Under the pieces are notes generated by a model. That model saw only the letters and a program-made list of their open reading frames with translations, made no database searches and was not told the origin of the DNA. The position numbers and the translations under genes were made by a program. A DNA stretch of 64,000 nucleotides from Rudaea cellulosilytica DSM 22992 (GTDB taxonomy: Bacteria > Pseudomonadota > Gammaproteobacteria > Xanthomonadales > Rhodanobacteraceae): the NCBI RefSeq assembly GCF_000378125.1, contig NZ_KB899243.1:186001-250000 (forward strand), written 5' to 3'. Shown one piece after another: positions 47,552-63,940 of the stretch (position 1 is its first letter; each line of letters opens with the position of its first letter).

Positions 47552-47696
47552 TAGGGCACTTCGAAAAACCGTAGCGAGCGAAGAGAATTTGCGCGTCGCC
47601 GGAGCGCAGGAACCGGAGTGTACACGTCAGTACATGAGGATTCCGAGCACCGCCGGCGCGCAACATCGAGCGCAGTAGGTTTTTCGATGTGCCCTA
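47552..47696. repeat. Structured 145-bp repeat, copy 1
   Basis: The element folds back on itself. A 19-base outer stem (47552-47570 with 47678-47696, one mismatch) encloses conserved GTAGCGAGCGAAGA and TCGAGCGCAGTAG strands, then a middle stem (TTGCGCG with CGCGCAA, then CCGG with CCGG), and an apical part with GGAA/TTCC and TGTAC/GTACA. Two further copies lie at 55.4 and 63.8 kb. The last bases overlap the stop codon of the convergent nitrilase-family gene. Confidence 0.85.
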
Positions 47697-48575
47697 CAGC
47701 GATTCCACTTTCGCGCGCACGACGTCGGGGCGCAGCTGCTGCTCCCAATCGACGGGCACGGCAACTTGCGCATTCCCGGCTGTCGCCTCGAGCGCGTCGA
47801 GATCGATGTCGGCGATCAGCCACGTCTCGCCGGGTTTTGCGGCGGCGAGCAGACCGTCGTCGGGCAGGCCACGATCGCTCGGCGCGTAAACCGCGGCGCG
47901 GCCGGTGTTCGTGTCGAGCGCGGGATTGTCTGGCGCTTCGCCCGCGGTGACGGACTGAGCGACGAAGATGCGGTTTTCCAGCGCGCGCGCCATGCAGCCG
48001 ATGCGCACGCGCGTCGCGCCTGCCTCGGTGTCGGTGCAGCTCGGCACGAGCAGCAGGCGCGCCCCGGCCTCGCGCTGCGCGCGTGCGTAGAGCGGAAATT
48101 CGCTGTCGTAACAGATCGCGATCGCAATGCGCCCGAACGGCGACTCGAACGCCTTGAGCGCGTCGCCCGGCTCGATCACTCGATGCGCTTTTTCGAAGCC
48201 GGTCAATGCGAGCTTGTCCTGGAAGACATGCGCACCGTCCGGGGAAAACAGATAGGCGCGGTTACGATATTTCCCATTCGGCTGCGCGAGCAGGAAAGTG
48301 CCGGCGAGCAGATGGATGCGATGCGTGGTCGCAAGCCCGGCGAACAGGCGCAGCCAGTCCTCGTGCACGGCCTGCAGCGCGGCGAGCGTCGCCGCGAAAT
48401 CGGCGCGGATTTTCGCGTCCAGCGTCGAAGCGAGTTCGAGCGCGAGGTATTCCGGCAGCACGACGATGCGCGCGCCCTGCGCGGCTGCGGCGGCAACTTC
48501 CGCGCTCACGCGCGCGGCGAATTCGTCGAACGAGGCCGGCGCGCCGATGCGCCATTGGGCGAGAGCGATTTTCAT
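47694..48575 (-). CDS. Carbon-nitrogen hydrolase (nitrilase superfamily)
   Basis: The 293-residue protein shows the Glu-Lys-Cys triad of the family: E42 in VLPEYLALE, K121 in FQDKLALTGFE, and C155 in IAICYDSEF. It hydrolyses an amide or similar C-N bond in the cytoplasm; the exact substrate cannot be assigned. A conserved C-terminal part around DTNTGRAAVYAPSDRGLPDD is complete. Its stop codon is formed by the end of repeat copy 1, so the element lies against the gene. Confidence 0.88.
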   Translation of the reverse strand: MKIALAQWRIGAPASFDEFAARVSAEVAAAAAQGARIVVLPEYLALELASTLDAKIRADFAATLAALQAVHEDWLRLFAGLATTHRIHLLAGTFLLAQPNGKYRNRAYLFSPDGAHVFQDKLALTGFEKAHRVIEPGDALKAFESPFGRIAIAICYDSEFPLYARAQREAGARLLLVPSCTDTEAGATRVRIGCMARALENRIFVAQSVTAGEAPDNPALDTNTGRAAVYAPSDRGLPDDGLLAAAKPGETWLIADIDLDALEATAGNAQVAVPVDWEQQLRPDVVRAKVESL

Positions 48576-48668
48576 TCGGAAAGTCTAGCGCAGGAAACAA
48601 AGCTGCAATCCAAGTGTGGCGAGGTTGGGACGATTTCAATACGATTCGATTTTATCGAGAGCGATGCG

Positions 48669-49475
48669 ATGGACACGAAAATCCGCGTCGGCATCGGCGG
48701 CTGGAACTATGCGCCGTGGCGCAGCAACTTCTATCCGCCGAAATGGCCGCAGAAACGCGAGCTCGAATTCGCTAGCCGGCAACTCACCTCGATCGAAATC
48801 AACAGCACCTACTACAGCCCGCAGAAACCGCCGACCTACGCACGCTGGCGCAGCGAGACGCCGGACGGATTCGTGTTCTCGCTCAAGGCGCCGCGCTTCT
48901 GCACCGATCGGCGCACGCTCGCCGACGCGGGCAACGCGATCGACGGCTTCGTCTTCGGCGGCCTGGCCGAATTCGGCGACCGACTCGGACCGATCAACTG
49001 GCAATTGCCGCCGTACAAGGCGTTCGACCGTGCCGATCTGGCCGCGTTCTTCGAACTGCTGCCGCGCGCGCTCGACGGCTTGTCGTTGCGCCATGTGCTC
49101 GAAGTGCGCCACGCGAGCTTCCTCTGCGCCGAGTATCTCGAACTCGCGCGCCGCCAGCGCATCGCCACCGTGTTCACCGATTCGCCGAAATATCCGTCGC
49201 TGGCCGACGTAACCGGTGACTTTGTCTATGCGCGACTGATGCGCAGCGAGGCGGATATCGACACCGGCTATGCCGCCGCCGATCTCGATCTCTGGGCACA
49301 GCGCGCGCAGGCCTGGAGCGAGGGCGCGGAGCCAACCGATCTGCCGCGCGTACAAGCTGCGCCCAACAGCGGCGGCGCAAACGCCGCGCCGCGCGAGGTG
49401 TACATCTATTTCATCAGTGCGGCGAAAGAACGCAATCCGGCCGCGGCGAAGTCGCTCATCGAACGCTTGCGCTGA
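48669..49475 (+). CDS. DUF72 family protein (YecE-like)
   Basis: The 268-residue protein starts MDTKIRVGIGGWNYAPWRSNFYP and contains EINSTYYSPQKPPTYARW, FSLKAPRF, and HVLEVRHASF, all typical of the TIM-barrel-like DUF72 family. A role in DNA repair or nuclease activity has been suggested for the family, but is not clear. It is divergent from the nitrilase-family gene, with 93 bases between them. A second ATG lies 5 bases upstream in another frame. Confidence 0.88.
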   Translation: MDTKIRVGIGGWNYAPWRSNFYPPKWPQKRELEFASRQLTSIEINSTYYSPQKPPTYARWRSETPDGFVFSLKAPRFCTDRRTLADAGNAIDGFVFGGLAEFGDRLGPINWQLPPYKAFDRADLAAFFELLPRALDGLSLRHVLEVRHASFLCAEYLELARRQRIATVFTDSPKYPSLADVTGDFVYARLMRSEADIDTGYAAADLDLWAQRAQAWSEGAEPTDLPRVQAAPNSGGANAAPREVYIYFISAAKERNPAAAKSLIERLR

Positions 49476-49494
49476 GCGAGGCCGGCCGGCGCGC

Positions 49495-50175
49495 TCAGTG
49501 GCGGCGCAGCGACCAGAACGGGATGTCGCGGCGCAGACGAAAGCCGATCCGTTCGTACAGTTGCTTCGCGCGCGGATTTTCGTGGCTGACATGCAGGAAC
49601 GGCAGCCGGCCCTGGCGCAGCGTGTCGTTGGTCAGCATCGCGGTCAGCCGTCGCGCATAACCTAGGGCGGCGAAGTCCGGATGCGTGCAGATCGCGCTCA
49701 TCTCGCGCGCCGACTCCGTGCCGAGGCGCTCGCCGATCATCGCCGCGAGCCGGCCGTCACGATATATGCCGAAGTAGCGGCCCATGTCCATCGTGCGTTC
49801 GCGAAAATAGTGCGGATAGACCAGTGCGGTCAGCGCGAGCACGTCGGCGCGATGTGCCGCGGACAGTTCGATCGCCTCCGGCCCCTCGACCTGCGCGATC
49901 GGCTGCTCGCAGACCATCTGCGCGAGCGGACGAAACGGCTCGAGCGTCCAGTGCGCGGGCGGCTTCGGCGCGACACCGAGCAGGTACACGCTCTCGCCCG
50001 GTGCGACCAGCGCCTCGAAATCGGACGTCGCCGCGGCCCGAGCATCGGCCACGGCGAGGAATGGCGCGTACTCCGGCGGATAGCGCGCAACATTACCGGA
50101 ACGCAGGGCCAGGTCGCGATGGACGCTGGCCAGCGAAGACCAGAACGGATTGTCGAGTTCGGGATGCGCCGGCAT
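49495..50175 (-). CDS. GNAT N-acetyltransferase (FR47-like)
   Basis: From MPAHPELDNPFWSSL the product has 226 residues: an N-terminal cap domain and a C-terminal GNAT fold with the acetyl-CoA loop CTHPDFAALGYARRLTAML and the last strand HVSHENPRAKQLYERIGFRLRRD. The family transfers acetyl groups to small molecules or protein N-termini; substrate unknown. An ATG at 50253 would add 26 residues without similarity I can see. It is convergent with the DUF72 gene, 19 bases apart. Confidence 0.85.
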   Translation of the reverse strand: MPAHPELDNPFWSSLASVHRDLALRSGNVARYPPEYAPFLAVADARAAATSDFEALVAPGESVYLLGVAPKPPAHWTLEPFRPLAQMVCEQPIAQVEGPEAIELSAAHRADVLALTALVYPHYFRERTMDMGRYFGIYRDGRLAAMIGERLGTESAREMSAICTHPDFAALGYARRLTAMLTNDTLRQGRLPFLHVSHENPRAKQLYERIGFRLRRDIPFWSLRRH

Positions 50176-50401
50176 GGCAGTGCAGATGAATGGACTGAGG
50201 GAGGATTCTTCTTCCGGGGCGCGAACTTCGCAAGCGTGGAAGTCTCGCGTCATTTCCGCCCTCGCCTGCTCACACGAGCCACTTTAATCCGATCTTTACT
50301 TTTGCGCGCGTAGAATCCCGCCGCCGGGCTCGGTGGGGGTAGACTTCGGGCCGCAGCCATGCAACGGCGCGATACGTTACATTCCAACCAAAGGAGTACG
50401 T

Positions 50402-51244
50402 ATGACCCTGACGCAGCTCAATTCCCCCAACAGACTCCACCGCCTCGCCGCGGCCATCGTGCTTGCCGCAGCGGCGCTGCCGGCGATGGCGATCACATTC
50501 GGCACTGCCGATGGCAGCGGCCATCCCAACGTCGGCTCGATGGTCGTCAAGACGCCGAATGGCGTGTTCCAGTGGTGCTCCGGCACGCTGATCGCCCCGC
50601 AGGTGTTCCTCACTGCCAGCCATTGCACGCAGCCGATCGCGCAATATCTGAGCGACCACCCCGACTGGCAGTTCCTCGTCACCTTCGATCCGGTGATCGA
50701 CACGACCGGCACGACCGGTACGTTCTACACCGGCACGCCGCATACCAATCCGCTGTACGGCAGCGGCGGTCAGAACGATCCGCACGATATCGCCGTGATC
50801 ACGCTCGACTCGGCACCACCGCTGTCACCGGCCAGCCTGCCAACGGCCGGCCTGTTCGATGCGATGAAGGCGAGCGGCACGCTCAACGGCACGCGCTTCA
50901 CCGCAGTCGGCTACGGTTCGACGCGCGACTCGATCAAGAAAGGCCCGCAAGGCATTGACGACAGCAACGTCGAGCGCCAGACCGTCGACCAGGGCTTCCG
51001 CTTTCTTACCGACGCCTGGTTGACCTTCGACATGCTGCCGACCGGATCGAACAACAGCGGCGGCACCTGCTACGGCGATTCCGGTGGACCGCATTTCCTG
51101 CACGACACGAATGGCACGGAGACCGAAATCGTCGCCGCGATCACGATCACCGGCGACACGCAGTGCAAGTCTTCGGACAAGGACTACCGCACCGACTCAC
51201 CGTCGGCGCGTTCGTTCCTCGCCAACTTCGTCACGCTACCCTGA
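50402..51244 (+). CDS. Secreted trypsin-like serine protease
   Basis: The 280-residue protein has a strong AAAGGAG ribosome binding site, a signal peptide ending in PAMA (about residue 30), and the chymotrypsin-family triad: H74 in LTASHC, D129 in DPHDIAV, and S227 in CYGDSGGPH. Cysteines near the His and Ser can form disulfides. The protein is secreted to the periplasm or outside. No propeptide or C-terminal sorting domain is seen. It is followed by a long GC hairpin. Confidence 0.9.
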   Translation: MTLTQLNSPNRLHRLAAAIVLAAAALPAMAITFGTADGSGHPNVGSMVVKTPNGVFQWCSGTLIAPQVFLTASHCTQPIAQYLSDHPDWQFLVTFDPVIDTTGTTGTFYTGTPHTNPLYGSGGQNDPHDIAVITLDSAPPLSPASLPTAGLFDAMKASGTLNGTRFTAVGYGSTRDSIKKGPQGIDDSNVERQTVDQGFRFLTDAWLTFDMLPTGSNNSGGTCYGDSGGPHFLHDTNGTETEIVAAITITGDTQCKSSDKDYRTDSPSARSFLANFVTLP

Positions 51245-51251
51245 GCCACAC

Positions 51252-51277
51252 CACGGCGCGCGCCTGCGCGCGCCGTG
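51252..51277 (+). terminator. Long GC hairpin after the protease gene
   Basis: CACGGCGCGCGC and GCGCGCGCCGTG form a perfect 12-base stem around CT, 7 bases after the stop. It lacks a T-run, so it is a likely but not classic terminator. Confidence 0.6.
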
Positions 51278-51408
51278 CACTCGGACGGGGCCCGGCCGGC
51301 ACGGGCCGCACAACCTGACGATTGTCATGCAGCGCCTCTGAAGCCCGTCAATAACGACGACAGCGGCCCGCATGCTAACGTGCCCCCGTTTCGCCACGGG
51401 AGTGCGTC

Positions 51409-52770
51409 ATGCACGATCTGACTCAAGGCCCGGTCAGCCGGCACATCATCAAGATGGCGATGCCGATCGGCATCGGCATGCTGTTCCAGACTCTGTATTT
51501 TCTCGTCGATCTGTATTTCGTCGCGCGCATCGGCGATGCGGCGATTGCCGGCGTCGGCGCTGCCGGCAACATCATGTTCATCGTCATGGCGCTCACCCAG
51601 GTGCTCGGCGTCGGCACGGTGACGCTGATCGCGCAGGCGGTCGGGCGCAAGGATCACGGCGACGCCAATCTGGTGTTCAATCAGAGCCTGCTGCTCGCGG
51701 CGCTATGCGGCGTGCTCACACTCGTGCTCGGCTACCTTACGATCGGGCCGTACATGCGCACGCTCGGCGCCGACGCGGCGACGCAGGACGCCGGCATCGC
51801 TTATCTTGCCTGGTATCTGCCCGGGCTGGCGCTGCAGTTCGCAGCGGTCTCGATGGGCTCGGCGCTGCGCGGAACCGGCATCGCCAAGCCGACGATGCTC
51901 GTGCAGGTGCTGACCGTCGTGATCAACGCGATACTCGCGCCGGTGCTGATCGCCGGCTGGGGCACTGGCAGCGCCCTCGGTATCGCCGGCGCCGGGCTGG
52001 CAACGACGATCTCGATCGCGGTCGGCGTCGTCCTGCTCGCGTTGTATTTCATCAGGCTGGAAAAATTCGTCGCTTTCGAGCGCAAACTGTGGGCGCCGCG
52101 CGTGGAGACATGGCGCCGCATCCTCGGCATCGGCCTGCCGGCCGGCGGCGAGTTCGCCCTGATGTTCATCTACATGGCGGTGATCTACACGGTCATCCGC
52201 GATTTCGGCGCGACTGCACAAGCCGGTTTCGGCATCGGCGCGCGCGTCATGCAGGCGATCTTCCTGCCCGCCATGGCGGTGGCATTTGCGACCTCGCCCG
52301 TCGCCGGACAGAACATGGGGGCCGGCCTCTCCGACCGCGTGCGCGCCACATTTCGTTCCGCGATCGGCATCGGCAGCGTATTGATGCTCGCCCTCACGCT
52401 GATCTGCCAGGTGGAGCCGGGTTGGTTCGTACGCGCTTTCACCAGCGATGCGGCAGTAGTCGCGATCGCAACCCAATTCCTGCGCTACATCTCGTGGAAC
52501 TTCGTCGCCCAGGGCATCGTGTTCACCTGTTCGGGCATGTTCCAGGCACTCGGCAACACCGTGCCCTCCCTGGTCAGCAGCGCCTCGCGCCTGCTCACGT
52601 TCGCGCTGCCGACGATCTGGCTGTCGCATCAGCCCGGCTTCGAACTGCGCCATGTGTGGATGGCTTCGGTCGCCAGCGTCACGCTGCAAGCCATATTCAG
52701 CCTGTGGCTGATGCGGCGCGAGTTTCAGCTGCGCTTGAAGCCGGCAGCCGTAGCGACGGCTGCCGCCTGA
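51409..52770 (+). CDS. MATE-family multidrug/metabolite exporter
   Basis: The 453-residue protein has twelve membrane spans arranged as two homologous halves, with the MATE motifs GPVSRHIIKMAMPIGIGML at the start, QVLGVGTVTLIAQAVGRKD in the first half, and AFATSPVAGQNMGAGLSDRV in the second. It exports drugs or metabolites in exchange for Na+ or H+ across the inner membrane. The start is preceded by a GGGAG-like site. It is convergent with the YCII gene, 8 bases apart. Confidence 0.9.
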   Translation: MHDLTQGPVSRHIIKMAMPIGIGMLFQTLYFLVDLYFVARIGDAAIAGVGAAGNIMFIVMALTQVLGVGTVTLIAQAVGRKDHGDANLVFNQSLLLAALCGVLTLVLGYLTIGPYMRTLGADAATQDAGIAYLAWYLPGLALQFAAVSMGSALRGTGIAKPTMLVQVLTVVINAILAPVLIAGWGTGSALGIAGAGLATTISIAVGVVLLALYFIRLEKFVAFERKLWAPRVETWRRILGIGLPAGGEFALMFIYMAVIYTVIRDFGATAQAGFGIGARVMQAIFLPAMAVAFATSPVAGQNMGAGLSDRVRATFRSAIGIGSVLMLALTLICQVEPGWFVRAFTSDAAVVAIATQFLRYISWNFVAQGIVFTCSGMFQALGNTVPSLVSSASRLLTFALPTIWLSHQPGFELRHVWMASVASVTLQAIFSLWLMRREFQLRLKPAAVATAAA

Positions 52771-52778
52771 GTTCCAAC

Positions 52779-53141
52779 CTAGCCGAAATCGGCCTCCATC
52801 ACCTGGCGCACCTCGCACTCCAGTTCCCAGCCGTCGGCGATGTGCAGCTCGACGAAGCGCTCGGTCAGCGCGATCGCCTCTTCCAGCGACTGCGCCTGCA
52901 GCATCGCATAGCCACCGACCACCTCCTTGGTTTCGGTGAACGGCCCGTCGACCAGGCTGATTTTGCCGCCGCGCAAACGCACGCGCTTGCCCTTGGCGGT
53001 CGGCATCAGGCCGGCAGTATCGAGCAGCGTTCCGTTGCGGCTCATGTCGCCCATCAGCTCGCCCATCTCGCGCATCAAGCGTTCGCTGGGTTGTTTTCCG
53101 GTGTTTTCCTGGACCCGGATCAGGGATAGAAATCGCATCAT
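52779..53141 (-). CDS. YCII-related (DGPF) domain protein
   Basis: The 120-residue protein is of YCII/DGPF type: FLSLIRVQENTG at the start, LLDTAGLMPTAKGKRVRL, the DGPFTETKEVVGGYAML signature, and a C-terminal VRQVMEADFG. Such proteins have a ferredoxin-like fold and often sit next to ECF sigma genes, but none is adjacent here. Enzymatic role unknown. It is cytoplasmic. Confidence 0.88.
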   Translation of the reverse strand: MMRFLSLIRVQENTGKQPSERLMREMGELMGDMSRNGTLLDTAGLMPTAKGKRVRLRGGKISLVDGPFTETKEVVGGYAMLQAQSLEEAIALTERFVELHIADGWELECEVRQVMEADFG

Positions 53142-53270
53142 TGGTCTCCTGTGTGTTTGGACGGACGGCCGTTGCCAGCGGCGAACAGACCGTTTCCATC
53201 TCGACGACGATCAAGGTGATGCCGGATCGACATTAAGCAGACCGGTTCCTTCTTGTCCGCAGATGTGAGG

Positions 53271-53648
53271 TCACGCCTGCGAGCGCACGGAACGCGCAAT
53301 CAGCCCGATGCCGCCGAACAACAGCACGAGCATCAACAACGTGTTGAACAGGCTGGTCGGGTGGAAATAGATCTGCAGGTTGGCGATCACGCCGGCAAGC
53401 ACGATGGCGAGGCCGGCGATCGTCAGCAGCCAGCCGACCATCGACTTGCCGTTGAAAAACAACAACGCGACGCCGGCCGCGAACGGCACTAACGAAAGGC
53501 CGAACGAGTTGTAGCCCCACAACGACCACATACCGCTCGTCACCGTCACCTGGTTCATCAGCAGCCAGCCGCCGACCACGGCAAGCACGAAGCCAATGAG
53601 AAATTGCCCCACGCCACCCGGTGTGCCACCCGCACCTGACATCGCCAT
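53271..53648 (-). CDS. Small integral membrane protein
   Basis: The 125-residue product has four predicted membrane spans (FLIGFVLAVVGGWLLM, SFGLSLVPFAAGVALLFF, MVGWLLTIAGLAIVLAGVI, LLMLVLLFGGIGLIA) and a Gly-rich start (MAMSGAGGTPGG). An AGGA site before the chosen ATG decides the start against an upstream ATG. I do not recognise a function. The gene is divergent from the S4-domain gene. Confidence 0.75.
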   Translation of the reverse strand: MAMSGAGGTPGGVGQFLIGFVLAVVGGWLLMNQVTVTSGMWSLWGYNSFGLSLVPFAAGVALLFFNGKSMVGWLLTIAGLAIVLAGVIANLQIYFHPTSLFNTLLMLVLLFGGIGLIARSVRSQA

Positions 53649-53804
53649 GATCCTGCTCCCCTCGCTGAAGGGCTTCTTTTTACGCAAGAAGGCGGCAGCG
53701 GGTCAACCGACGACGCCACCCGCCGCGATTCACACCCCGCGCAAACTCGTCTACGCTAGCCCCATGGCTACCGAATCAGCGCACAGCAAAATGACGGTGG
53801 ACAC

Positions 53805-54023
53805 ATGACCATCGAATTCCCGCTCGAACGCGATCACGTGGAGCTGCACCACCTGCTCAAGCTCACCGGCGTCTGCAACAGCGGCGGCGCAGGCAAGGCC
53901 ATGGTCGCGAGCGGTGCGGTGACCGTCGACGGCGTCGTCGAGCTGCGCAAGACCTGCAAGATCCATGACGGACAAGTTGTGCAGGCCGGCGATGTGGTAA
54001 TCCGCGTCGCCGCGGTGCCTTAG
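53805..54023 (+). CDS. S4-domain RNA-binding protein (YbcJ-like)
   Basis: The 72-residue protein matches YbcJ/RqcP-type single S4 domains: HVELHHLLKLTGVCNSGGAGKAMVASGAVTVDGVVELRKTCKI. It binds structured RNA, probably rRNA; its precise task is unknown. The length is complete for the family. It stands 60 bases before the next gene on the same strand. Confidence 0.9.
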   Translation: MTIEFPLERDHVELHHLLKLTGVCNSGGAGKAMVASGAVTVDGVVELRKTCKIHDGQVVQAGDVVIRVAAVP

Positions 54024-54082
54024 CAGAGAGATCCGCGCTCGCCCTTCTTTTCAAACCCTCTTTTTTTCGAACAGGAGTGGAT

Positions 54083-54601
54083 ATGTCGACTTGCCCACAA
54101 TGCGGCGCGAGCGTCGCCGCGAATGCGCACAACTGCCCGCAATGCGGTGCGGATGTGATCTTCCACTACGTCCCGCACCCTCGAATCGCCAAGCGCAAGG
54201 AACATGCGCCATTCAAGAGAAGGGACTTGTTGCCAAGTGACGGAGCAATCCAGCGTTTCAACGCTTTCCTCGCCGTGAAGATCACCAGCGCGGTCGGCAC
54301 GATGTGGTGTGCTTACCTTTTCGCCGGCCTCGCTCTCGTCAGCCTGCCGGAAGCCATTCGCGGCGGCACGGCACCGCTGATCGCCTGGATCGCGCAGACC
54401 TTCCTGCAACTGGTGCTGCTGTCGATCATCATCGTCGGCCAGAAGGTCGACGGTGTCGCCTCGGACAAGCGCGCGGTCGAAACCTACAACGATGCCGAGG
54501 CGGTGCTGCACGAAGCCATGCAGATTCAGGCACACCTGGCCGCGCAGGACAAGGTATTGACTGACCTGATCGGCGAGGTGCGCGCTCGGAAGATCTCTTG
54601 A
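54083..54601 (+). CDS. Zinc-ribbon membrane protein, DUF1003-like
   Basis: The 172-residue protein starts with a double-CxxC zinc ribbon, CPQCGASVAANAHNCPQCG. After a basic linker come two membrane segments, ITSAVGTMWCAYLFAGLALV and LIAWIAQTFLQLVLLSIIIVGQKV, resembling DUF1003, and a C-terminal helix (AEAVLHEAMQIQAHLAAQDK). A GTG two codons earlier is possible, but the AGGAG site favours the ATG. Function is unknown. Confidence 0.82.
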   Translation: MSTCPQCGASVAANAHNCPQCGADVIFHYVPHPRIAKRKEHAPFKRRDLLPSDGAIQRFNAFLAVKITSAVGTMWCAYLFAGLALVSLPEAIRGGTAPLIAWIAQTFLQLVLLSIIIVGQKVDGVASDKRAVETYNDAEAVLHEAMQIQAHLAAQDKVLTDLIGEVRARKIS

Positions 54602-54632
54602 CCGCGGCTGCCTTCTCGGGGAATGGTGCGTT

Positions 54633-54661
54633 CGGAAAGTGAGCCCTGACCCGACTTTCCG
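54633..54661. repeat. 29-base imperfect palindrome, copy 1
   Basis: CGGAAAGT and ACTTTCCG enclose GAGCCCTGACCCG. It lies between two convergent genes. A related 29-base sequence occurs at 56183. Confidence 0.55.
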
Positions 54662-54681
54662 CGGCCTCGGTTGTACTGAGA

Positions 54682-55398
54682 CTATTTCGCGACGAAAACA
54701 AATGTCTCCTGTCCGCAAACATCTCCGACACGACGGCCGAGGACAAATCCATTCTTCTCCGCCAGCGCGGCGAAATACTCCGGCTGCACGTCGGCGCGGA
54801 ATTCGTCGCCGCTGAACTTGCTGTCGCCTTCGGGGCGATCGTGGATCGAAGCGATCAGCTTGCCGCCGCGCTTGAGCACGCGGCGTGCTTCCTGGAGATA
54901 GCGCACCGTCGCGCCTTCCTTGAGATGGGTGAACAACGAGGCGGCAAAGGCCAGGGTCATGCTGCCGTCCGCTGCGGGAAACACGACTTCCTCCGCACTG
55001 ACCGCACCGTCCGGGTTATAGCGCGGCCCGCGTACGTCGAGATGGGCGAAGCGGAAGCGTCCGCTCGTCACCGGCGAGATGAAACGCGAATTCCAGTCGA
55101 TATACGGCTGGATCACATCGACACCGAGGTAGTCCTCGATCTGCGGGTGATGCAGCAGCATGCGCGCGGTGCGCGCGCAGCCGCAGCCGATGTCGAGCAC
55201 GCGTGCGTGCGCGGGCAATTCCATCGCGACGAGCTGGCCCCAGGCGTCGCCGACGACGAGGAAATTCTCCACCGTCTCGGCACCGACGTGCAGCATCATG
55301 CGCGCATTCGGCAGCGGCGCAATGCCGTTCCAGCGCGGGAAATGTGGATGGGTGGCTTCCGCGTCGGCGGCGGTCGGCAGTGCTCTGTCTTCGGTCAT
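54682..55398 (-). CDS. Class I SAM-dependent methyltransferase
   Basis: The 238-residue protein has the SAM-binding motif VLDIGCGCARTARMLL (motif I), YLGVDVIQPYIDW (motif II), and a post-core LKRGGKLIASIHDR. An AGAGGAC ribosome binding site sets the start at MTEDRALP. The substrate cannot be assigned; sugar, lipid and small-molecule methylases share the fold. It is divergent from the AHSA1 gene with repeat copy 2 in between. Confidence 0.85.
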   Translation of the reverse strand: MTEDRALPTAADAEATHPHFPRWNGIAPLPNARMMLHVGAETVENFLVVGDAWGQLVAMELPAHARVLDIGCGCARTARMLLHHPQIEDYLGVDVIQPYIDWNSRFISPVTSGRFRFAHLDVRGPRYNPDGAVSAEEVVFPAADGSMTLAFAASLFTHLKEGATVRYLQEARRVLKRGGKLIASIHDRPEGDSKFSGDEFRADVQPEYFAALAEKNGFVLGRRVGDVCGQETFVFVAK

Positions 55399-55440
55399 GT
55401 CCTCTTCACTCGGTTCAATGTTCAATTCCGTGGTGCAACG

Positions 55441-55587
55441 CTAGAACCTATCTCAAAACGTAGCGAGCGAAGACAGTTCGCGCGTCGCCGGAGCGCAGGA
55501 ACCGGAGCATACACAAAGGTATGTGAGGATTCCGAGCACCGCCGGCGCGCGAAATGTCGAGCGCAGTAGTTTTGGGATAGGTTCTAG
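55441..55587. repeat. Structured 147-bp repeat, copy 2
   Basis: The outer 19-base stem (55441-55459 with 55569-55587) has one T-G pair; it starts and ends with CTAG. The middle stem is TTCGCGCG with CGCGCGAA and the apical stem is CATAC with GTATG. The inner conserved strands are those of copy 1, although the outer stem sequence is quite different. It lies between divergent genes. Confidence 0.85.
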
Positions 55588-56110: not shown

Positions 56111-56182
56111 ACGATTAGACGTTTGCCAACGGATTGGCGTTGCAAACACGGCGAACTTCTTGATCGCGTTCGCCGCGTTTCG

Positions 56183-56211
56183 CGGAAAATGCACTCTGAC
56201 CCCGGTTTCCG
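56183..56211. repeat. 29-base imperfect palindrome, copy 2
   Basis: CGGAAA and TTTCCG enclose a centre containing CTCTGACCCC, close to the copy at 54633 (shared CGGAAA, CTGACCC, TTTCCG). It also lies between convergent genes and just after the low-GC gene. Confidence 0.55.
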
Positions 56212-56217
56212 AATTCT

Positions 56218-57369
56218 TTAGATCTTTCGCAAGACGGTCGAAATATCTCTTGCCAATGCAGCTGCATTAAAAAAATGATTCGCCGATTGCTCAGCTACAT
56301 GCAGCAGCCGTTTCTTTGCTCTATTGTGCTCGGCCGTCATTCGAGGTGTTGACTCAATGACGGATCGGAATTCCGCATTCGACTTTCCTGTAGTTGCAGT
56401 GGTATCCGCAAGATGCTCTAGGGTTTCTGCCAGATTGATTCTTTGCTTCTTCTCTTCAGGCGAACGCGTTGACATTAGGGGTACTGATCGACTTAACGCG
56501 TTGAAAGCCTCTGTATTTGCTTCGTTGAACTCTGCAGAGAGACGAGACAGCTTTCCCGAGAGGTCATCCCAATCCTCCGCCTGCCGATGAAGAAATCTGC
56601 GAAGCTCCGAACGACTTAACTCCCCTTTTTCCCTGAGATCGTTCAATTCGCCAGTTCTGCGGGTCGTTGACGCCGCTGACGCCTGTAACGCTGCGGCAAT
56701 GCCATCCATTGCACTAGTTGCGATAGCGAGCTTGCCTTCATAAATGTCTTGGTAGTCCAGCAACCCTAATTCATCATCATTAGCTTGTGTAGAAGAGGCA
56801 GACGACTCGAACTGTTGCTCAGGTGGCTTATTAGTCTGTTTGCTTACAAGTTCCTGAGCAGCCTGAATGATGTTCGCGCGTAACGAGCTTTTGAAGTCCT
56901 CAACGACGCTAAATTTCTTATAGAGAACACCCTCGCGTCCGAGAGTTTTCTGAAATTCAAACACCCCCGCCAGTTGAGTGGGATCCAAGCGTTCTAACGA
57001 AGGATTTTCTGTCTTAAAGTAGATGAGCAGCCGGAGGCTGTTCGGTTCGTTTCGCAGGCGTGTTATCGCGGATTCGATTTCCTCGACCGAGCCAGATTTC
57101 GCGCGAGATGTGGGTGAACCAATGCGAGTCCAGAATATCCCAACCAAAATATCGAACCGATCTGCCACCTGCGAATTAATAACTTCTTGTGGGTCATCGC
57201 CAAACCCCGGTGATGCATCTTTATCCCAGCGAAAGCTATCAAAACGAATCTTCAGCAACTCAGCGCTCGATCTGTTTAATTCATCAAGAACTTGTTCAAC
57301 AGCCTCCGCTTCCTCGACTACATCTGCTGGGCAAGAGATCATCACCTTTAAGACATTCACCATCCTCAT
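56218..57369 (-). CDS. DUF4062-like protein with helical C-terminal half, lower GC
   Basis: The 383-residue protein has an N-terminal domain (5-175) with the DUF4062-type pattern: KVMISCPADV (8-17), FRWDKDASPGFGDDPQEVIN, DILVGIFWTRIGSPT and SGSVEEIESAI (92-102). A Ser/Gln-rich linker follows and then a largely helical, charged region (205-380). DUF4062 domains often open STAND-type or other conflict proteins; that link is family knowledge, function here is unknown. Two counted lines give 45-48 percent GC, against about 65 in neighbours, so it was probably acquired. It starts 14 bases after hutU with a GGGGA site; earlier starts overlap hutU. Confidence 0.75.
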   Translation of the reverse strand: MRMVNVLKVMISCPADVVEEAEAVEQVLDELNRSSAELLKIRFDSFRWDKDASPGFGDDPQEVINSQVADRFDILVGIFWTRIGSPTSRAKSGSVEEIESAITRLRNEPNSLRLLIYFKTENPSLERLDPTQLAGVFEFQKTLGREGVLYKKFSVVEDFKSSLRANIIQAAQELVSKQTNKPPEQQFESSASSTQANDDELGLLDYQDIYEGKLAIATSAMDGIAAALQASAASTTRRTGELNDLREKGELSRSELRRFLHRQAEDWDDLSGKLSRLSAEFNEANTEAFNALSRSVPLMSTRSPEEKKQRINLAETLEHLADTTATTGKSNAEFRSVIESTPRMTAEHNRAKKRLLHVAEQSANHFFNAAALARDISTVLRKI

Positions 57370-57383
57370 TTCGTTTCCCCATC

Positions 57384-59054
57384 TCATGCCATCGGTAATT
57401 TCAACCCCTGCTCTTTCGCACACACCCGCGCAATCTCATACCCCGCATCCGCATGCCGCATCACGCCGGTGCCCGGATCGTTCCACAGCACGCGCGCGAT
57501 GCGCTTGTCGGCCGCTTCGCTGCCGTCGCAGACGATGACGACGCCGCTGTGCTGCGAATAGCCCATGCCGACACCGCCGCCGTGGTGGAAGCTGACCCAG
57601 GTCGCGCCGCCGGCGGTGTTGAGTAGCGCGTTCAAGATCGGCCAGTCGCTGACCGCGTCGCTGCCGTCTTTCATCGCTTCGGTTTCGCGATTCGGTGACG
57701 CAACGCTGCCGGAATCGAGATGGTCGCGGCCGATCACGATCGGGGCCTTGAGCTCGCCGTTGCGCACCATTTCGTTGAACGCGAGGCCGAGGCGGTGGCG
57801 CTGGCCGAGTCCGACCCAGCAGATGCGCGCGGGGAGGCCCTGGAAGTCGATGCGTTTCTCGGCCATGTCGATCCAGTTGTGCAGATGCGGATCGTCGGGG
57901 ATCAGTTCCTTGACCTTGGCGTCGGTCTTGAGGATGTCCTCGGGATCGCCCGAGAGCGCGACCCAGCGGAACGGGCCGATGCCGCGGCAGAACAGCGGGC
58001 GCACGTATGCCGGCACGAAGCCGGGGAAGTCGAACGCGTTCTTGCAGCCTTCGTCGAAGGCCATCTGGCGGATGTTGTTGCCGTAGTCGACCGTCGGAAT
58101 GCCCTGCGCGTGGAACGCGAGCATCGCCTCGACGTGCACGCGCATCGATTTCTTCGCCGCGTCGCGCACGCCGTTCGGGTCGGCCTTGCGCCGTTCGAAC
58201 CACTGCTCGACCGTCCAGCCGATCGGCAGGTAGCCGTTGACCGGATCGTGCGCGCTGGTCTGGTCGGTGACCGCATCGGGCTTGATGCCGCGCTTGACGA
58301 GCTGCGGGAGAATCTCCGCGGCGTTGCCGAGCAGCGCGATCGATTTCGCCTCACCGGCCTTTGTATACTTTTCGATGCGCGCGAGCGCGTCGTCGAGATC
58401 GCGCGCCTGTTCGTCGACGTAGCGCGTCTTCAGGCGGAAGTCGATGCTCTTCTGCTGGCATTCGATGTTGAGCGAACAGGCACCGGCGAGCGTCGCCGCA
58501 AGCGGCTGCGCGCCGCCCATGCCGCCGAGACCGGCGGTGAGTATCCACTTGCCTTTGAGCGAACCACCGTAATGCTGGCGGCCGAGTTCGACGAAGGTTT
58601 CGTAGGTGCCCTGCACGATACCCTGCGAGCCGATGTAGATCCACGAGCCGGCCGTCATCTGGCCGTACATCATCAGGCCCTTCTTATCGAGCTCGTTGAA
58701 GTGCTCCCAGGTCGCCCAGTGCGGCACGAGGTTGGAGTTCGCGAGCAGCACGCGCGGCGCGTCGGGATGGGTCGGGAACACGCCGACCGGCTTGCCCGAC
58801 TGGATCAGCAGGGTCTCGTCATCGTTGAGTTCGCGCAAGCTGCGCAGGATCGCATCGAAGCATTCCCAGTTGCGCGCGGCGCGGCCGATGCCGCCGTAGA
58901 CGACGAGCTCGTGCGGGTTCTCGGCGACCTGCGGATCCAGGTTGTTCTGGATCATGCGATACGCGGCCTCGGTCAGCCAGCTCTTGCAGGTGAGCGTGTT
59001 GCCGCGCGGCGCGCGGATCGTGCGCGCGGTGTCGATGCGGGTCGGTGCGTTCAT
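57384..59054 (-). CDS. hutU: Urocanate hydratase
   Basis: The 556-residue protein has all HutU landmarks: [25 protein letters not shown]-type [12 protein letters not shown] region, [16 protein letters not shown] (NAD binding), [14 protein letters not shown], and the C-terminal [15 protein letters not shown]. It converts urocanate to imidazolone propionate using bound NAD+. The product feeds hutI, which lies about 31 kb away in the window. It has normal length and composition. The lower-GC gene follows it on the same strand. Confidence 0.97.
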
Positions 59055-59108
59055 GGCGGAATCCCGTGTTCAGAGACCGCCGATTATCTGCCGTTCGCGC
59101 GGGATTTC

Positions 59109-59741
59109 CTACTTCCGAACGGCGCGCATCTGCTCCGAACGATTGCGCGAGAAGACGAACACCGAGGCCGGCGGGATGTTGCGCCAGGCGAATCCGCCGC
59201 GGCGTACCGAGAGGCCGAGTTCGTCCAGCAGTTCGCGCGGCAGCGGCGGCTTCGGCGAATAGGTGAACTGGATGAAGCAGCCGCCCGGTTTGAGCACGTC
59301 GAATGCGGATCGCATGATCGAAAGCTGCAGGTCGCGAGACATGTTGAGCAGGCCCAAGCCGCTGACGATCGCGTCGACCTGGCCCGCACTGGCGAACTCC
59401 TTTTCCGCAACGATGCTGGTCAGGTCACAGGCGTTGCCGCAGACGACGTGCGCCGTGGGAAATTGCGTACGCAGGTATTCGTACAATTCCTCGTTCAATT
59501 CGACGACGAGCAACTGCTCAGGCGCGATGCCGTTGTCGAGCATCGTGCGCGTGAACACGCCCGTACCCGCGCCCAGCTCGATGACGCGACTGGCTCCGGC
59601 TGGCAACTCAGCAGTCATCAGTCCGGCCAGCTGTGCGCCGGAGGGCGCCAGTGCGGCGATGCTCAGCGGGTTCTTCAGCCACTGGCGAAAGAACAACCAA
59701 GCCTGCGAGCCGGACGTGGACGACGATTGCGGTTGAGTCAC
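59109..59741 (-). CDS. SAM-dependent methyltransferase, phospholipid N-methyltransferase-like
   Basis: The 210-residue protein has the N-terminal FFRQWLKNPLSIAALAPSG segment typical of PmtA-like proteins, SAM motif VIELGAGTGVFTRTML, VVELNEELYEYLR, and the post-core ILKPGG-type FDVLKPGGCFIQFTYS. PmtA methylates phosphatidylethanolamine toward phosphatidylcholine in the membrane; rRNA methylase-like relatives exist, so the substrate is not certain. It is 54 bases upstream of hutU on the same strand. Confidence 0.82.
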   Translation of the reverse strand: MTQPQSSSTSGSQAWLFFRQWLKNPLSIAALAPSGAQLAGLMTAELPAGASRVIELGAGTGVFTRTMLDNGIAPEQLLVVELNEELYEYLRTQFPTAHVVCGNACDLTSIVAEKEFASAGQVDAIVSGLGLLNMSRDLQLSIMRSAFDVLKPGGCFIQFTYSPKPPLPRELLDELGLSVRRGGFAWRNIPPASVFVFSRNRSEQMRAVRK

Positions 59742-59848
59742 TGCGAATCCGTGTGAGAGAAACGGCGACCATCATAGTGTGACAGGGTCAAGACGGCCAC
59801 CCTTGCGGACACGCACGAAGCCACAACCCATCACATTCCAAACAAAAA

Positions 59849-59870
59849 CCCCGCTGCCGAAGCAGCGGGG
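59849..59870 (-). terminator. Rho-independent terminator after the Tyr/Gly-rich gene
   Basis: CCCCGCTGC and GCAGCGGGG enclose CGAA (TTCG on the transcribed strand) and are followed on the minus strand by TTTTTGTTT. It ends the transcript of the small Tyr/Gly-rich protein. Confidence 0.9.
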
Positions 59871-59900
59871 CGTTGTAGCGGCACTCAACTGGATGACCGG

Positions 59901-60302
59901 TTAGCGGTGGTAGTAACCGCCGCCATGATGGTCGTAGCCACCGCGGTGGTCGTAGCCGCCGCGATATCCTTCGCGATAGTACCCATGGCCGTAGCCGCCA
60001 CGATAGACGGGCCGCGAGTAGTAACCGCCGTAGTAGGCCGGGCCGTAGTACACGGGATACGGATCGGCGTAAACCACCGGCGCCGGCGCCGCGTAATACG
60101 CCGGGCCGTAGTAGGCCGGTCCATAGTAGCCGCCGCCGACACCGACGTAGGTGTGATGACCACCGACGCCGATGCTCAGACCCGGCACGCTGATACCGAG
60201 GCTGAAGTGATCGCGCGCCGAAGCGGCAGAGGCAAATGCGAGCCCGGCCACGGCGACTAGGCCGAAAGCCATCGCACGAAAACCACGCTTGCTGATGTTC
60301 AT
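59901..60302 (-). CDS. Exported Tyr/Gly-rich repeat protein
   Basis: The 133-residue protein has a signal peptide (residues 1-29, ending SAASARD), a short SLGISVPGLSIGVGGHH segment, and then about 80 residues with repeated YYGPAYY and GGY units and a His-rich end (HRGGYDHHGGGYYHR). Such proteins are common in the envelope of Xanthomonadales and have no defined task; the tail could bind metal. It is transcribed alone and ends in a strong terminator. Confidence 0.8.
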   Translation of the reverse strand: MNISKRGFRAMAFGLVAVAGLAFASAASARDHFSLGISVPGLSIGVGGHHTYVGVGGGYYGPAYYGPAYYAAPAPVVYADPYPVYYGPAYYGGYYSRPVYRGGYGHGYYREGYRGGYDHRGGYDHHGGGYYHR

Positions 60303-60449
60303 GAGTTGCTCCGAGGATTGCAGAAACGCGATCCATTTGATCGCAAGTGCATGCTGCGATTTTCCGCCTGAATCGATTGTGAAAAATGCAGGCCTTGGCC
60401 CGGTCCGTTCAGCCTCGTCCCGGAAGCCGCCGCACGAAACTGAACGGGC

Positions 60450-62624
60450 CTATTTTTTCCTCAGTTCCCAAGCCTGGTGGATGCGTGGATTGCGCTCGAA
60501 ATCGAACGGGATCGTGGCCGAACTGATGTCGCGAATCTCGAACTCGGAAAGCGCGGCTTCGTCGAGCTTGAAGCGGCGGTAGTTGTTCGAAAACAGGATG
60601 ACGCCGCCCGGCAGCAGGCGTTCGCCGCAAAGCTGCAACAGGCGTACGTGGTCGCGCTGCACGTCGAAGTCGGCGGCGCTCTTCGAGTTCGAGAACGTCG
60701 GCGGATCGACGAAGATCAGGTCGTACATCGCCGAATGCTGCGCGAGATATCCGGCCGCGTCGGCACGCACGAGTTTGTGCTTCGTGTTGCCGAAACCGTT
60801 GATCGCAAGATTGCGCGTCGCCCACTCCAGATAGGTTTGCGACAGGTCGACGCTGGTCGTCTCGGCCGCGCCGCCGGCCGCGGCGTAGACGCTGACGCTG
60901 CCGGTATAGCAGAACAGGTTGAGGAAGCGCTTATCTCGCGCGAGTTCCCGAACGCGTGCGCGCAGCGGGCGGTGATCGAGGAACAGCCCGGTGTCGAGGT
61001 AATCCCACAGGTTGGCGAGAAAGCGCAGGCCACCCTCGCCTACTTCGATGAATTCGCCGCGATGATCGAGGTTGCCGTATTTTTCGCCGCCCTTGCCGCG
61101 TCGGCGCTGCTTCAGCGCGATGCGCTCGCGAGGGACGTTCAAGGCCTCGCCCGCCGCGCGCACGAGCTCGCGCAGGCGCGTGCGTGCGAGAGTTTCGTCG
61201 ATGCTGGCCGGCGCCGCGTACTCCTGCACGTGCAGCCAGTCGAGCGGCATACCGCCGGCGCGTGGATGCTCGCGGTAGATGTCGATCGCCGCCGCATATT
61301 CGGGCAGGTCCGCGTCATAGACGCGCCAGCATTCGACGCCTTCGCGCGCGGCGATCTTGCGCAGATGGCGATAGTTCTTGTCGATGCGGTTCTTGACCAT
61401 CTGCGCGCCGGCCGACAGCGGCTTCGGCTCGGGTTTCGGCGCATCGGCGGCGGCGATCTCAAAATTGAGGAGCACGCATTCGAGCGCGCCGTTGTAGAGC
61501 TGGTATTTCTTTTCCGCGCGCAAGCCGATCGCGCGCGCCAGATTTTCATCGGATGTGATCACGCTCGCGCGCCAGCCGGGAAACTCGGATTTCAGTTTCG
61601 CACCGAGCAAACGATACAGATCGGCGAGACCGGCATCCGCGCCCATACGTTCGCCGTACGGCGGATTGCAGATCACGAGTCCCGGCGTCGGCAATTCCTG
61701 CGGCCGGTGCAGATGTTCAAGTGACTGCTTGCCGAGATGGATGAAGCCCGACATCTGCGCGTACTGCGCGTTGTGCACGGCTTCGCGCAGTACGTTCGCG
61801 TCGCGATCGAAGCCGAAGAACACGGGCCGCAGAGCCTGCGCGCCGGCGCGAGCGCGTGCCTGTGCTTCTTCACGCAGCGCCTGCCACGCGGCCGCATCGT
61901 GCCCGCGCCAGCCGTAAAAACCGAAATAGTCGCGACGCAGCCCCGGTGCGATATCCGCGGCCATCAGCGCCGCCTCGACCAGCAGCGTGCCCGAGCCGCA
62001 CATCGGGTCGACCAGGCCGCCGCCGGCCGCATACACCGCCGGCCAGCCCGCACGCAGCAGCATGCCCGCGGCGAGATTTTCCTTGAGCGGAGCCAGGCCC
62101 TTGCCGAGGCGGTAGCCGCGCTGATGCAACGGCGTGCCGGCGAAATCAATGCTCAGGATCGCGTGGCCTTTGCGCAGCACCAAGTTCACCCGCACCGATG
62201 GTTGTTCGGTATCGACGCTGGGTCGTTCGCCGTCGCGCTCGCGGAACTGGTCGACGATCGCATCCTTCACGCGCAGCGCCGCAAACTGCGTATGGGTAAT
62301 GCCCTGCGTGCTGCCGACCGCGTCGACCGCAAACGTGTCGCCCGCGCCGAAATGTTCGCTCCAGTCGACAGCGAGCGCGCCGCGATACAGCGCATCGCCG
62401 TCAGCGGCAGCGAACTCGGCGATCGGCATCAGCACGCGGCTCGCCAGGCGCGACCATAGGCAGGCGCGATAGCCCGCGTCGAGTCCGCCACTGAAATGCA
62501 CGCCGGCCAGCGCTTCGTGCACTTCGGCAGCGCCGAGCGCCTTCAACTCGTCGACGAGCAGGTATTCCAGCCCCTTCGGGCAGGTCGCGAAAAACTTTCG
62601 CGCGACAGTATCCGCCGCGTTCAA
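60450..62624 (-). CDS. rlmKL: Bifunctional 23S rRNA methyltransferase RlmKL
   Basis: The 724-residue protein (E. coli RlmL has 702) joins a THUMP domain (about 45-160), an N2-guanine methyltransferase half with NPPYGERMG near 320, and a C-terminal RlmK half with FVDPPTFSNSK near 640. It methylates G2445 and G2069 of 23S rRNA. The start is a TTG overlapping the stop of the upstream hydrolase (TTGA), with GGAG eight bases before it. An earlier in-frame ATG gives a basic stretch foreign to the family. Confidence 0.93.
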   Translation of the reverse strand: MNAADTVARKFFATCPKGLEYLLVDELKALGAAEVHEALAGVHFSGGLDAGYRACLWSRLASRVLMPIAEFAAADGDALYRGALAVDWSEHFGAGDTFAVDAVGSTQGITHTQFAALRVKDAIVDQFRERDGERPSVDTEQPSVRVNLVLRKGHAILSIDFAGTPLHQRGYRLGKGLAPLKENLAAGMLLRAGWPAVYAAGGGLVDPMCGSGTLLVEAALMAADIAPGLRRDYFGFYGWRGHDAAAWQALREEAQARARAGAQALRPVFFGFDRDANVLREAVHNAQYAQMSGFIHLGKQSLEHLHRPQELPTPGLVICNPPYGERMGADAGLADLYRLLGAKLKSEFPGWRASVITSDENLARAIGLRAEKKYQLYNGALECVLLNFEIAAADAPKPEPKPLSAGAQMVKNRIDKNYRHLRKIAAREGVECWRVYDADLPEYAAAIDIYREHPRAGGMPLDWLHVQEYAAPASIDETLARTRLRELVRAAGEALNVPRERIALKQRRRGKGGEKYGNLDHRGEFIEVGEGGLRFLANLWDYLDTGLFLDHRPLRARVRELARDKRFLNLFCYTGSVSVYAAAGGAAETTSVDLSQTYLEWATRNLAINGFGNTKHKLVRADAAGYLAQHSAMYDLIFVDPPTFSNSKSAADFDVQRDHVRLLQLCGERLLPGGVILFSNNYRRFKLDEAALSEFEIRDISSATIPFDFERNPRIHQAWELRKK

Positions 62625-63133
62625 GCGAACTGCTCCAGAAACAGGCGGAATTGCTCGGCGATGAAATCGACGTGGCTGCCGAGGCGATGGTCGTCGTTCA
62701 ATACCGTGATCGCATCGCCACGTGCGCGCGCGAACGCGATCGCGGCGTCGACTGGACAAACCTCGTCGTTCCAGCCGTGCACGAGCGTGGTCGGCACGGC
62801 CGCCGCGGCGAACGGCCGCGCGTATCCGGGGATCGCCACCGGCAGCGCGATCAGGAACAAGCCGACGCAGTTCAATCCGGTCGACGCCAGCGCCGAGGTG
62901 AACGCGCCCATGCTCGATCCGGCGAGCACAACCGGCGCATCGGCCGGCGCATGCGATTGCAGGCGCGCGATGCGCGCGTCGATATCGCGCACGTCGCGGC
63001 GCGCATCGAGATCGCGATAGTCGGGGCGCACGCTGCGCAAGCCGAGCGCCTCGGCGGCCTTCGCAAGCGCGCTCACCTTGGTCGCCTCGGGCCCGCTTTC
63101 CAGGCCGTGCGACAGTATCAGGAACGGTTTCAT
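62621..63133 (-). CDS. Small alpha/beta hydrolase
   Basis: The 170-residue protein has an N-terminal ILSHGLESGPEATKV, the nucleophile elbow AGSSMGAF with Ser74, LVHGWNDEVCPVD with the likely Asp, and NDDHRLGSHVD with the likely His. It is smaller than typical hydrolases and matches a YcfP/UPF0227-like group of unknown substrate. Its stop overlaps the TTG start of rlmKL, so the two are translationally coupled. It is divergent from the amidase gene. Confidence 0.85.
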   Translation of the reverse strand: MKPFLILSHGLESGPEATKVSALAKAAEALGLRSVRPDYRDLDARRDVRDIDARIARLQSHAPADAPVVLAGSSMGAFTSALASTGLNCVGLFLIALPVAIPGYARPFAAAAVPTTLVHGWNDEVCPVDAAIAFARARGDAITVLNDDHRLGSHVDFIAEQFRLFLEQFA

Positions 63134-63186
63134 TCGCGGATTATCGCATGCTGACAGGCCGCCTCCGTGCATGCGAGACTGCATGT

Positions 63187-63768
63187 ATGCCGATATCCGC
63201 CCCGCCCCCCGACCTTGTCATCCACGACTGGCCTCTGCCTTACGAAGCCAAGCTCAACCATCGTGCGCTGGCGGCGATCGATCTCGTCGTTATCCACTGC
63301 ACCGAGCTGCCGGACATGGCGATGACGCGCGAGTTCGGCGAGCGCGTGCATTATCCGGAGAAGGGCACCGGACACAGCGGCCACTACTACATTACCGAAG
63401 CCGGCGCGGTGTACCGCTTCGTCGCACCCGAGCGCGTGGCCAATCACACCAAGGACTGGAACACGCGTTCGATCGGCATCGAGATGTTCAATCTGGGCCG
63501 CTATCCCTATTGGGGCGACAGCCGCCACCAGGCGTTCACGGTGGCGTATACGAAAGAGCAGATCCAGTCGCTGCTGCTGCTGTTGCGCAAGCTCAAGCAA
63601 GACATCCCGAGCCTGCGCTACGTCGCTGGCCACGAGGATCTCGATACGCGTCTCGAGCCCGCGAGCGATGATGCAAAGATCATGCTGCGCCGGCGCCAGG
63701 ACCCAGGCCCGCTGTTCCCGTGGAACGAGATCGTGCCGGCCGCCGGATTGGCGCGCTTGCGGCCTTAG
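63187..63768 (+). CDS. N-acetylmuramoyl-L-alanine amidase (Amidase_2, AmpD-like)
   Basis: The 193-residue protein has the zinc ligands and active-site motifs of the family: VVIHCTELPD, GHSGHYYITEAGAVYRF, NHTKDWNTRSIGIEM, and VAGHEDLDTRLEPASDD. It cleaves the MurNAc-L-Ala bond of peptidoglycan or its fragments. No signal peptide is seen, so an AmpD-like cytoplasmic recycling role is plausible. An ATG 13 codons upstream is possible; neither start has a clear ribosome binding site. Confidence 0.88.
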   Translation: MPISAPPPDLVIHDWPLPYEAKLNHRALAAIDLVVIHCTELPDMAMTREFGERVHYPEKGTGHSGHYYITEAGAVYRFVAPERVANHTKDWNTRSIGIEMFNLGRYPYWGDSRHQAFTVAYTKEQIQSLLLLLRKLKQDIPSLRYVAGHEDLDTRLEPASDDAKIMLRRRQDPGPLFPWNEIVPAAGLARLRP

Positions 63769-63794
63769 CCAGCCGATGCCTCGCGGGCATGGCC

Positions 63795-63940
63795 AAGAAT
63801 CTGCCCTCAAAGCGTAGCGAGCGAAGAGAATTTGTGCGACGCCGGAGCACAGGAACCGGAGCATACAAGTAGTATGTGAGGATTCCGAGCACCGCCGGCG
63901 CACAAATTATCGAGCGCAGTAGCTTTGAGGACAGGTTCTT
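63795..63940. repeat. Structured 146-bp repeat, copy 3
   Basis: The outer 19-base stem (63795-63813 with 63922-63940) has two G-T pairs and no mismatch. The middle stem AATTTGTGCG with CGCACAAATT is perfect over 10 bases, and the apical stem is CATAC with GTATG. It lies between the amidase gene and the last, partial gene. Confidence 0.85.

Follow-up and report, generated by a model that had tools for sequence, protein, structure and literature searches.

A repeated hairpin element of Rudaea cellulosilytica, probably an IS5-type non-autonomous transposon with exchangeable ends and a conserved folded core

A 64,000-nucleotide stretch of the Rudaea cellulosilytica DSM 22992 genome (contig NZ_KB899243.1, positions 186,001 to 250,000; hereafter the window) contains three copies of a long hairpin element on its plus strand, at 47552..47696 (copy 1, 145 nt), 55441..55587 (copy 2, 147 nt) and 63795..63940 (copy 3, 146 nt), and raises the question of whether such an element is a functional RNA, a module serving the genes beside it, or mobile DNA. 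A first-pass annotation made from the letters alone had proposed that the three copies share their inner strands while varying in paired regions, and the copies are found as it described them. We consider it likely that the element is a non-autonomous IS5-type transposon, that is, a miniature inverted-repeat transposable element (MITE), whose ends are exchangeable and whose folded core is conserved, so that in broad terms it would belong with repeats such as ERIC; both the repeated and apparently mobile nature of the element and selection on its inner fold, as that annotation had supposed, are supported.

Each copy consists of a core of about 108 nt with GTAG at both edges (47571..47678, 55460..55569 and 63814..63922, all on the plus strand) enclosed by two outer arms. 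The RNA folds of copies 1 to 3 are far more stable than those of dinucleotide shuffles (z of -9.9, -10.7 and -8.7), as are the DNA folds of both strands (z of -7.5 to -8.7). Changes on both sides of a pair occur in 21 of 46 pairs among 30 copies from this genome; in an alignment of 57 diverse copies (A5), where 94.7% of cells are paired, both sides change in 39 of 45 pairs, and 608 cells carry such two-sided changes, compared with a mean of 175 after shuffling and no more than 167 in slid controls. A tree-aware covariation test on 115 copies, using a sequence-only MAFFT alignment and a Fitch-based null with 40 simulations, and hence imitating R-scape without being R-scape itself, gives E<0.05 for 27 of 43 pairs; of the 60 column pairs with the strongest signal, 28 fall within the structure. 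The covariation originally seen in the middle and apical stems is thus real by shuffle, slid and tree-aware controls.

The core hairpin is interrupted by three GNA/GA internal loops, which probably form tandem sheared G.A pairs with one bulged base, a geometry that we infer; in A5 their G and A are 96-100% conserved and the middle base 63-95%. A chosen set of 29 internal-loop columns, which excludes the apical loop and columns 31-39 and 115-124, has a mean top frequency of 0.89 and is 79% purine, whereas all 54 unpaired core columns average 0.68, below the 0.83 of the paired core columns, and conservation therefore sits in motifs and not in unpaired positions generally. G.U pairs outnumber A.C (375 to 87, with about 190 of those G.U from two fixed pairs; 96 to 38 in A5 once these two are removed, with G.U in excess in 38 sequences and A.C in 10), the sequences being related and the counts non-independent. 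Of 115 copies, 106 fold more stably on the plus strand when treated as RNA and 107 when treated as DNA. The G.U excess and the greater stability together indicate that the strand carrying GGAACCGGAG is the one kept foldable. These features bear on the proposal that the covariation arises by copying of one arm from the other, through template switching at the palindrome and with no selection on the fold. Such copying would account for outer arms that change en bloc and for adjacent apical-stem base pairs that change together, but it would erase the GNA/GA loops, all three of which remain unpaired and nearly invariant in the 57 copies, and it sits badly with the greater retention of G.U on one strand; we regard it as unlikely.

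The outer stem tells a different story from the core, and the suggestion that it too reflects compensatory change is not supported as it was put: for the most part whole arms are replaced instead, and several arm classes match IS5-family terminal repeats. Among 12 pairs of own-genome copies with cores at least 95% identical (drawn from 40 copies with clean anchors among 63), identity between the left outer arms is 60% or less in seven and 80% or more in three; the left and right arms of a single copy agree at 0.89, and arms between copies at 0.54. Near-identical cores with unlike arms imply that the outer arms have been exchanged as blocks. A possible source for them is suggested by insertion sequence (IS) loci, 30 of 71 PF01609 matches from 14 of 23 genomes, which were compared with the outer arms in a set of 120 elements. 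Five of the 30 loci have inverted 16-mers, 0.8-1.2 kb apart, that match the outer arms of at least one element (L293, L272, L296, L280 and L286), with 0, 1, 1, 2 and 4 mismatches over both 16-mers together, and in none of 30 reversed loci or 60 genomic stretches. The transposases of L272 and L296 score 349 and 204 bits against NCBIfam IS5 cut-offs of 140 and 110, and the open reading frames (ORFs) of L293 and L286 fall just under the IS5 cut-offs. In the window, the 5' outer arm of copy 2 (55441..55459, AGAACCTATCTCAAAA; 3' arm 55570..55587) agrees at all 16 bases with one end of L296's IS5-family element, and that of copy 1 (47552..47570, AGGGCACTTCGAAAAA; 3' arm 47679..47696) differs at two of 16 bases from an IS end in L293, while the arms of copy 3 (63795..63813 and 63923..63940) have no paired match among the 30 loci.

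The element thus has terminal inverted repeats of the same classes as IS5-family transposons (the IS5_3 and IS5_4 groups of NCBIfam), but it has no transposase and they have no core. The core was absent, as read by eye, from the first 110 nt inside the five IS ends, and the five IS intervals contain no core string save for one single-mismatch GTAGCGAGCG in L293. The first-pass annotation had said that its view would fall if a known transposon-derived palindrome explained the ends; the IS5 matches provide this for the ends but not for the core. As to an autonomous partner, the end sequence AGACCTCTTTCCAAA gave no evident IS-sized pair in G293 and G469 at up to one mismatch, occurring there as pairs about 143 nt apart or as single copies.

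About a third of the copies are bordered by short direct repeats. Among 97 copies (18 of 115 having been excluded for failed anchors or a short arm), direct repeats at the outer-stem edges of 3 bp are found in 36, against 13.4 in permuted sets (sd 3.2), of 4 bp in 24, against 4.3 (sd 2.0), and of 5 bp in nine, against 0.8; 19 of the 36 3-bp repeats are TTA, TAA, TCA or TGA. Several hallmarks of a MITE are present, the element being short (145-147 nt), multi-copy (at about 73 places) and, judged by length only, non-coding, with terminal inverted repeats in common with autonomous IS of other genomes and with target-site duplications.

The figure of about 73 places in this genome derives from 87 matches to a covariance model, R1, after removal of 14 opposite-strand duplicates, with 150 of 5389 candidates scored and seven of the 73 short or weak; R1 was built from 27 own copies (alignment A2), three copies with an insertion being excluded. 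Copies are widespread in relatives: BLAST with copy 2 was positive in all 12 same-genus relatives and in none of eight from other genera, and R1 matches 23 of 101 genomes of the order, this one included. A core pattern is present in at least 112 stretches of named GTDB genomes, the genera among the 80 matches listed including Xanthomonas, Aeromonas, Pseudomonas, Halomonas, Marinobacterium, Dyella, Rhodanobacter, Roseateles and Curvibacter. A broader model, R2, built from the 57 copies of A5, has matches at E<=0.001 in 123 genomes out of 369 from the class (own included, up to eight candidates scored per genome); reading 19 of these matches as sequence, a set that did not take in the weakest, reveals a highly variable middle, with L256 cut and L267 folding otherwise. 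Across the phylum 82 of 398 genomes, again including this one, have R2 matches at E<=0.001 (up to seven candidates scored per genome), and those outside the class are not counted as members, given that unrelated hairpins reach 17 bits and that E-values are rough. Carriage is mainly chromosomal, as few plasmid and phage records match: a Xanthomonas copy was found in seven of 72,556 plasmid records and in two of 50,697 phage records (a single phage under two accessions), and an Aeromonas copy in one plasmid-collection record of 4.9 Mb; plasmids and phages were dropped as carriers with so few matching records. A 60-nt core match lies within a hypothetical-protein gene of Yersinia phage vB_YenM_42.18 (OM046624.1:18126-18185).

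Several variants were observed among these matches. Among own-genome matches of 200-230 nt, a subclass has about 68 nt inserted at a single site on the apical 3' side, as in L025:2622-2848, where the insert follows GAGGATT; in others, about 15 nt are inserted close to the first loop. Deletion derivatives retain both outer arms and little core (L018:1994-2054, 61 nt; L018:2444-2483, 40 nt; L010:2934-2986, 53 nt). Genome G438 has two very different subfamilies (L369, L372, L375, L378, L379, L383, L385 and L387), and in one of them the ends resemble AGGGCACCTCTAAAAA and the inner sequence is ATAGTGGATTTTG. At L044:1113-1639 in G049, a relative of the element gives four matches in tandem, with a period of about 139 bp, beside what by eye appears to be a tRNA gene, and G063 and G077 have closely spaced runs of matches too.

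The copies are placed predominantly in one orientation with respect to genes. In a mixed set of 86 of 115 copies with long flanks (ORFs of at least 450 nt, edge interval -3..+2), the stop codon of an antiparallel ORF falls at the 3' edge in 40, and that of a co-directional ORF at the 5' edge in nine; the corresponding counts are 14 and 6 for own copies and 26 and 3 for other genomes. For this genome, where 63 copies of the 66 listed were used, 32 have such a stop codon at the 3' edge and 8 at the 5' edge, or 34 and 5 of 63 (p 2e-6) with ORFs of at least 300 nt that are coding-like by codon-position GC; the -3..+2 interval was fixed after the mixed-set result had been seen, and 27 copies are common to the two sets. 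Over the wider interval of -60..+12 the own copies give 44 and 16 (p 4e-4). All ORFs were called by custom scripts and not by a gene finder. Most simply this orientation bias is one of survival, keeping the stronger-folding strand out of mRNA, though it may instead be one of insertion. On contig C1 of G000 both the strand of the element and the GC skew switch near 1.1 Mb, and 27 of 37 copies fit one replication-strand orientation (p 0.008), although the split point was chosen post hoc and this is a lead only.

Placement of this kind would also be expected of a terminator or mRNA-stability module kept by hosts at gene 3' ends, as has been proposed for ERIC in Yersinia; ERIC at 3' ends is described as altering mRNA stability with orientation mattering (PMC2229807, PMC10969869). 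The core hairpin is indeed preceded by an A run and followed by a T run, both supplied by the outer arms, but these runs are part of the IS5 terminal repeats, 29 of 63 own copies are without a coding-like stop codon at the 3' edge, and position is not conserved between species. Host use may be secondary, and as the origin of the element we think a host-kept module improbable, slightly more so than arm copying.

The lack of positional conservation is apparent in genome G010, where the places matching copies 1 and 2 have no intact copy and the best covariance-model scores belong to unrelated short hairpins of 17 bits or less; 15 further same-genus stretches, mostly beside the gene left of copy 3, gave no match at E<=0.01. 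In place of copy 1, G010 has a 792-bp stretch with other short perfect hairpins (L092:4249-4765) whose arms are GGTCACTTTCTCTTGC and GGTGACTTCTCTTTGC.

The undescribed RNA family envisaged by the first-pass annotation turns out to be half described. The 76 nt of Rfam sX9 (RF02228) correspond, in reverse complement, to the 5' half of Xanthomonas copies, apex included; the model takes in half of the hairpin, hence has a different consensus structure, and lies on the strand opposite to the one that keeps G.U and G.A, so that the full hairpin and its strand escape it. Rfam at gathering thresholds gave no match in the window, where copy 2 scores 29.3 bits with sX9 against a gathering score of 44 (copies 1 and 3 being covered by the gathering search), and the gathering score is exceeded in six of 15 related loci. 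sX9 is listed among the 20 most prevalent small RNAs (sRNAs) of bacterial genomes (PMC9029176), and its genes are reported to be upregulated under copper in Xanthomonas campestris (PMC10924375; see also PMC6337395 on sX9). That half of the element should be an sRNA in Rfam, one reported to respond to copper, and that the fold and loops are strand-specific, would suit a functional RNA family in which a transcript of the plus strand, or of the sX9 strand, acts in trans or in cis and dispersal is secondary. This too appears unlikely, to about the same degree as arm copying, since position is not conserved between species, transcripts of genes that stop at the element would carry the opposite strand, whose fold is weaker, and the element ends match transposon ends.

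The GTAG on both sides of the core calls to mind the repetitive extragenic palindromes (REPs) moved by RAYT, the Y1 transposase, in which a GTAG tag adjoins an imperfect hairpin (PMC3733652), and this genome does have one Y1_Tnp gene above cut-off. However, it is the only one of six same-genus genomes to do so, and Y1_Tnp is not detected at E<=0.001 in G003, G011 or G012, which have 39, 31 and 49 BLAST matches to the element (G012 being 78% complete). GTAG REPs are moreover 20-40 bp long (PMC3733652), against about 146 bp here with IS5-type ends, and the short duplications together with those ends suit a DDE transposase better; mobilization as a REP-like element therefore seems very unlikely. 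QMITE2 of Coxiella burnetii, a MITE of 150-190 bp that is mainly intergenic or in 3' untranslated regions, contains a GTAG REP and is a source of sRNA (PMC5896051), resembles the element by description in its short length, location and GTAG, but has direct repeats of 7-11 nt (PMC5896051). The attC sites were set aside by eye.

A structural parallel is offered by ERIC/IRU, which like the element is a single long hairpin, intergenic and multi-copy. An Escherichia coli ERIC copy (L031) also shares the apical motif GGAGCTTACATAAGTAAGTGA, a GA/GA loop and a G.U closing pair; 28 of the 57 copies in A5 have the strict apical motif, which turns up a single time in 400 kb of sequence from this genome read on both strands. 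The E. coli ERIC, which was picked for its likeness to the element, scores only 20 bits with R2, and the link is weakened because an unrelated short hairpin reached 17 bits with R1; the outer ends also differ, ERIC having a 7-bp terminal inverted repeat and TA at its termini (PMC2229807), and kinship is no more than suggested. The same ERIC copy (L031:159-282) scores 46.4 bits with Rfam V_AS5 (gathering score 96), and ERIC-like repeats may be in Rfam under another name too. Literature searches gave no relevant match to strings from the core and ends, nothing on ERIC together with Xanthomonads and, in excerpts of open-licence papers, no description of the whole element, although we do not claim its absence from print.

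Returning to the element as a non-autonomous IS5-type transposon, its outer stem would be a pair of IS5-type terminal inverted repeats on which an IS5-family transposase could act in trans, to judge from the sequence of the ends. Insertion would make a short target duplication, of TNA type about half the time; stop codons would suit such a target, and insertion there would rebuild the stop codon and be harmless. The core would be retained while the ends are swapped for those of other IS5-group elements. Its fold presumably helps the element to spread, perhaps because a hairpin, single-stranded or cruciform, keeps the two ends together, and the hairpin may also allow one arm to be copied from the other. 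The fold must, we infer, matter to the spread or survival of the element.

A number of observations weigh against this interpretation. A 3-bp repeat is missing from 61 of the 97 copies under the rule applied, notwithstanding the target-site duplications expected of a MITE, the permitted offsets were picked after an initial scan (the permuted sets being given equal freedom), and four of the 24 four-base repeats are palindromic and hence ambiguous. This genome has no PF01609 match (Y1_Tnp being the sole other transposase family searched), no co-resident IS with the ends of the element was found in G414, G438, G248 or G245 (26 of 34 matches with readable ends), and the IS-end matches join different genomes, with the IS in one and the matching elements in others. 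No base-precise empty site was found, the relatives being too diverged, and the 12-nt TAGCGAGCGAAG beside the place of copy 2 in G010 could be a remnant or chance. Finally, a selfish element needs only its ends, and the MITE model leaves the strict conservation of the core unexplained.

The contexts of the three window copies are convergent, divergent and tandem, in agreement with the ORFs and Pfam and with the original description. Copy 1 is accompanied by genes with PAP2 and CN_hydrolase matches; the latter, a carbon-nitrogen hydrolase gene on the minus strand (47694..48575, ORF and Pfam), terminates inside the element, the final three bases of the 3' outer arm being its stop codon. Copies 2 and 3, unlike copy 1, do not end in a stop codon. 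A methyltransferase gene is to the left of copy 2 and an Amidase_2 gene to the left of copy 3; a Pfam scan gave no match for the ORF right of copy 2, and the gene right of copy 3 was assigned by eye only.

More tentatively, and with the odds somewhat against it, a transferable folded core across the Gammaproteobacteria (in the GTDB sense) may wear various IS5-group ends and land one-way at stop codons, with ERIC a branch of the same superfamily; if this is true, the folded strand would offer a general way to hitch-hike on various transposases. The element links a widely annotated sRNA, sX9, with a class of MITEs and with transposons of the IS5 family; by implication, many loci annotated as sX9 may be mobile-repeat arms, read on the strand with less structure. 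The element also provides a case of strong RNA-like covariation in an apparently selfish DNA element, and its orientation-specific placement at stop codons bears on the clustering of bacterial intergenic repeats at the ends of genes.

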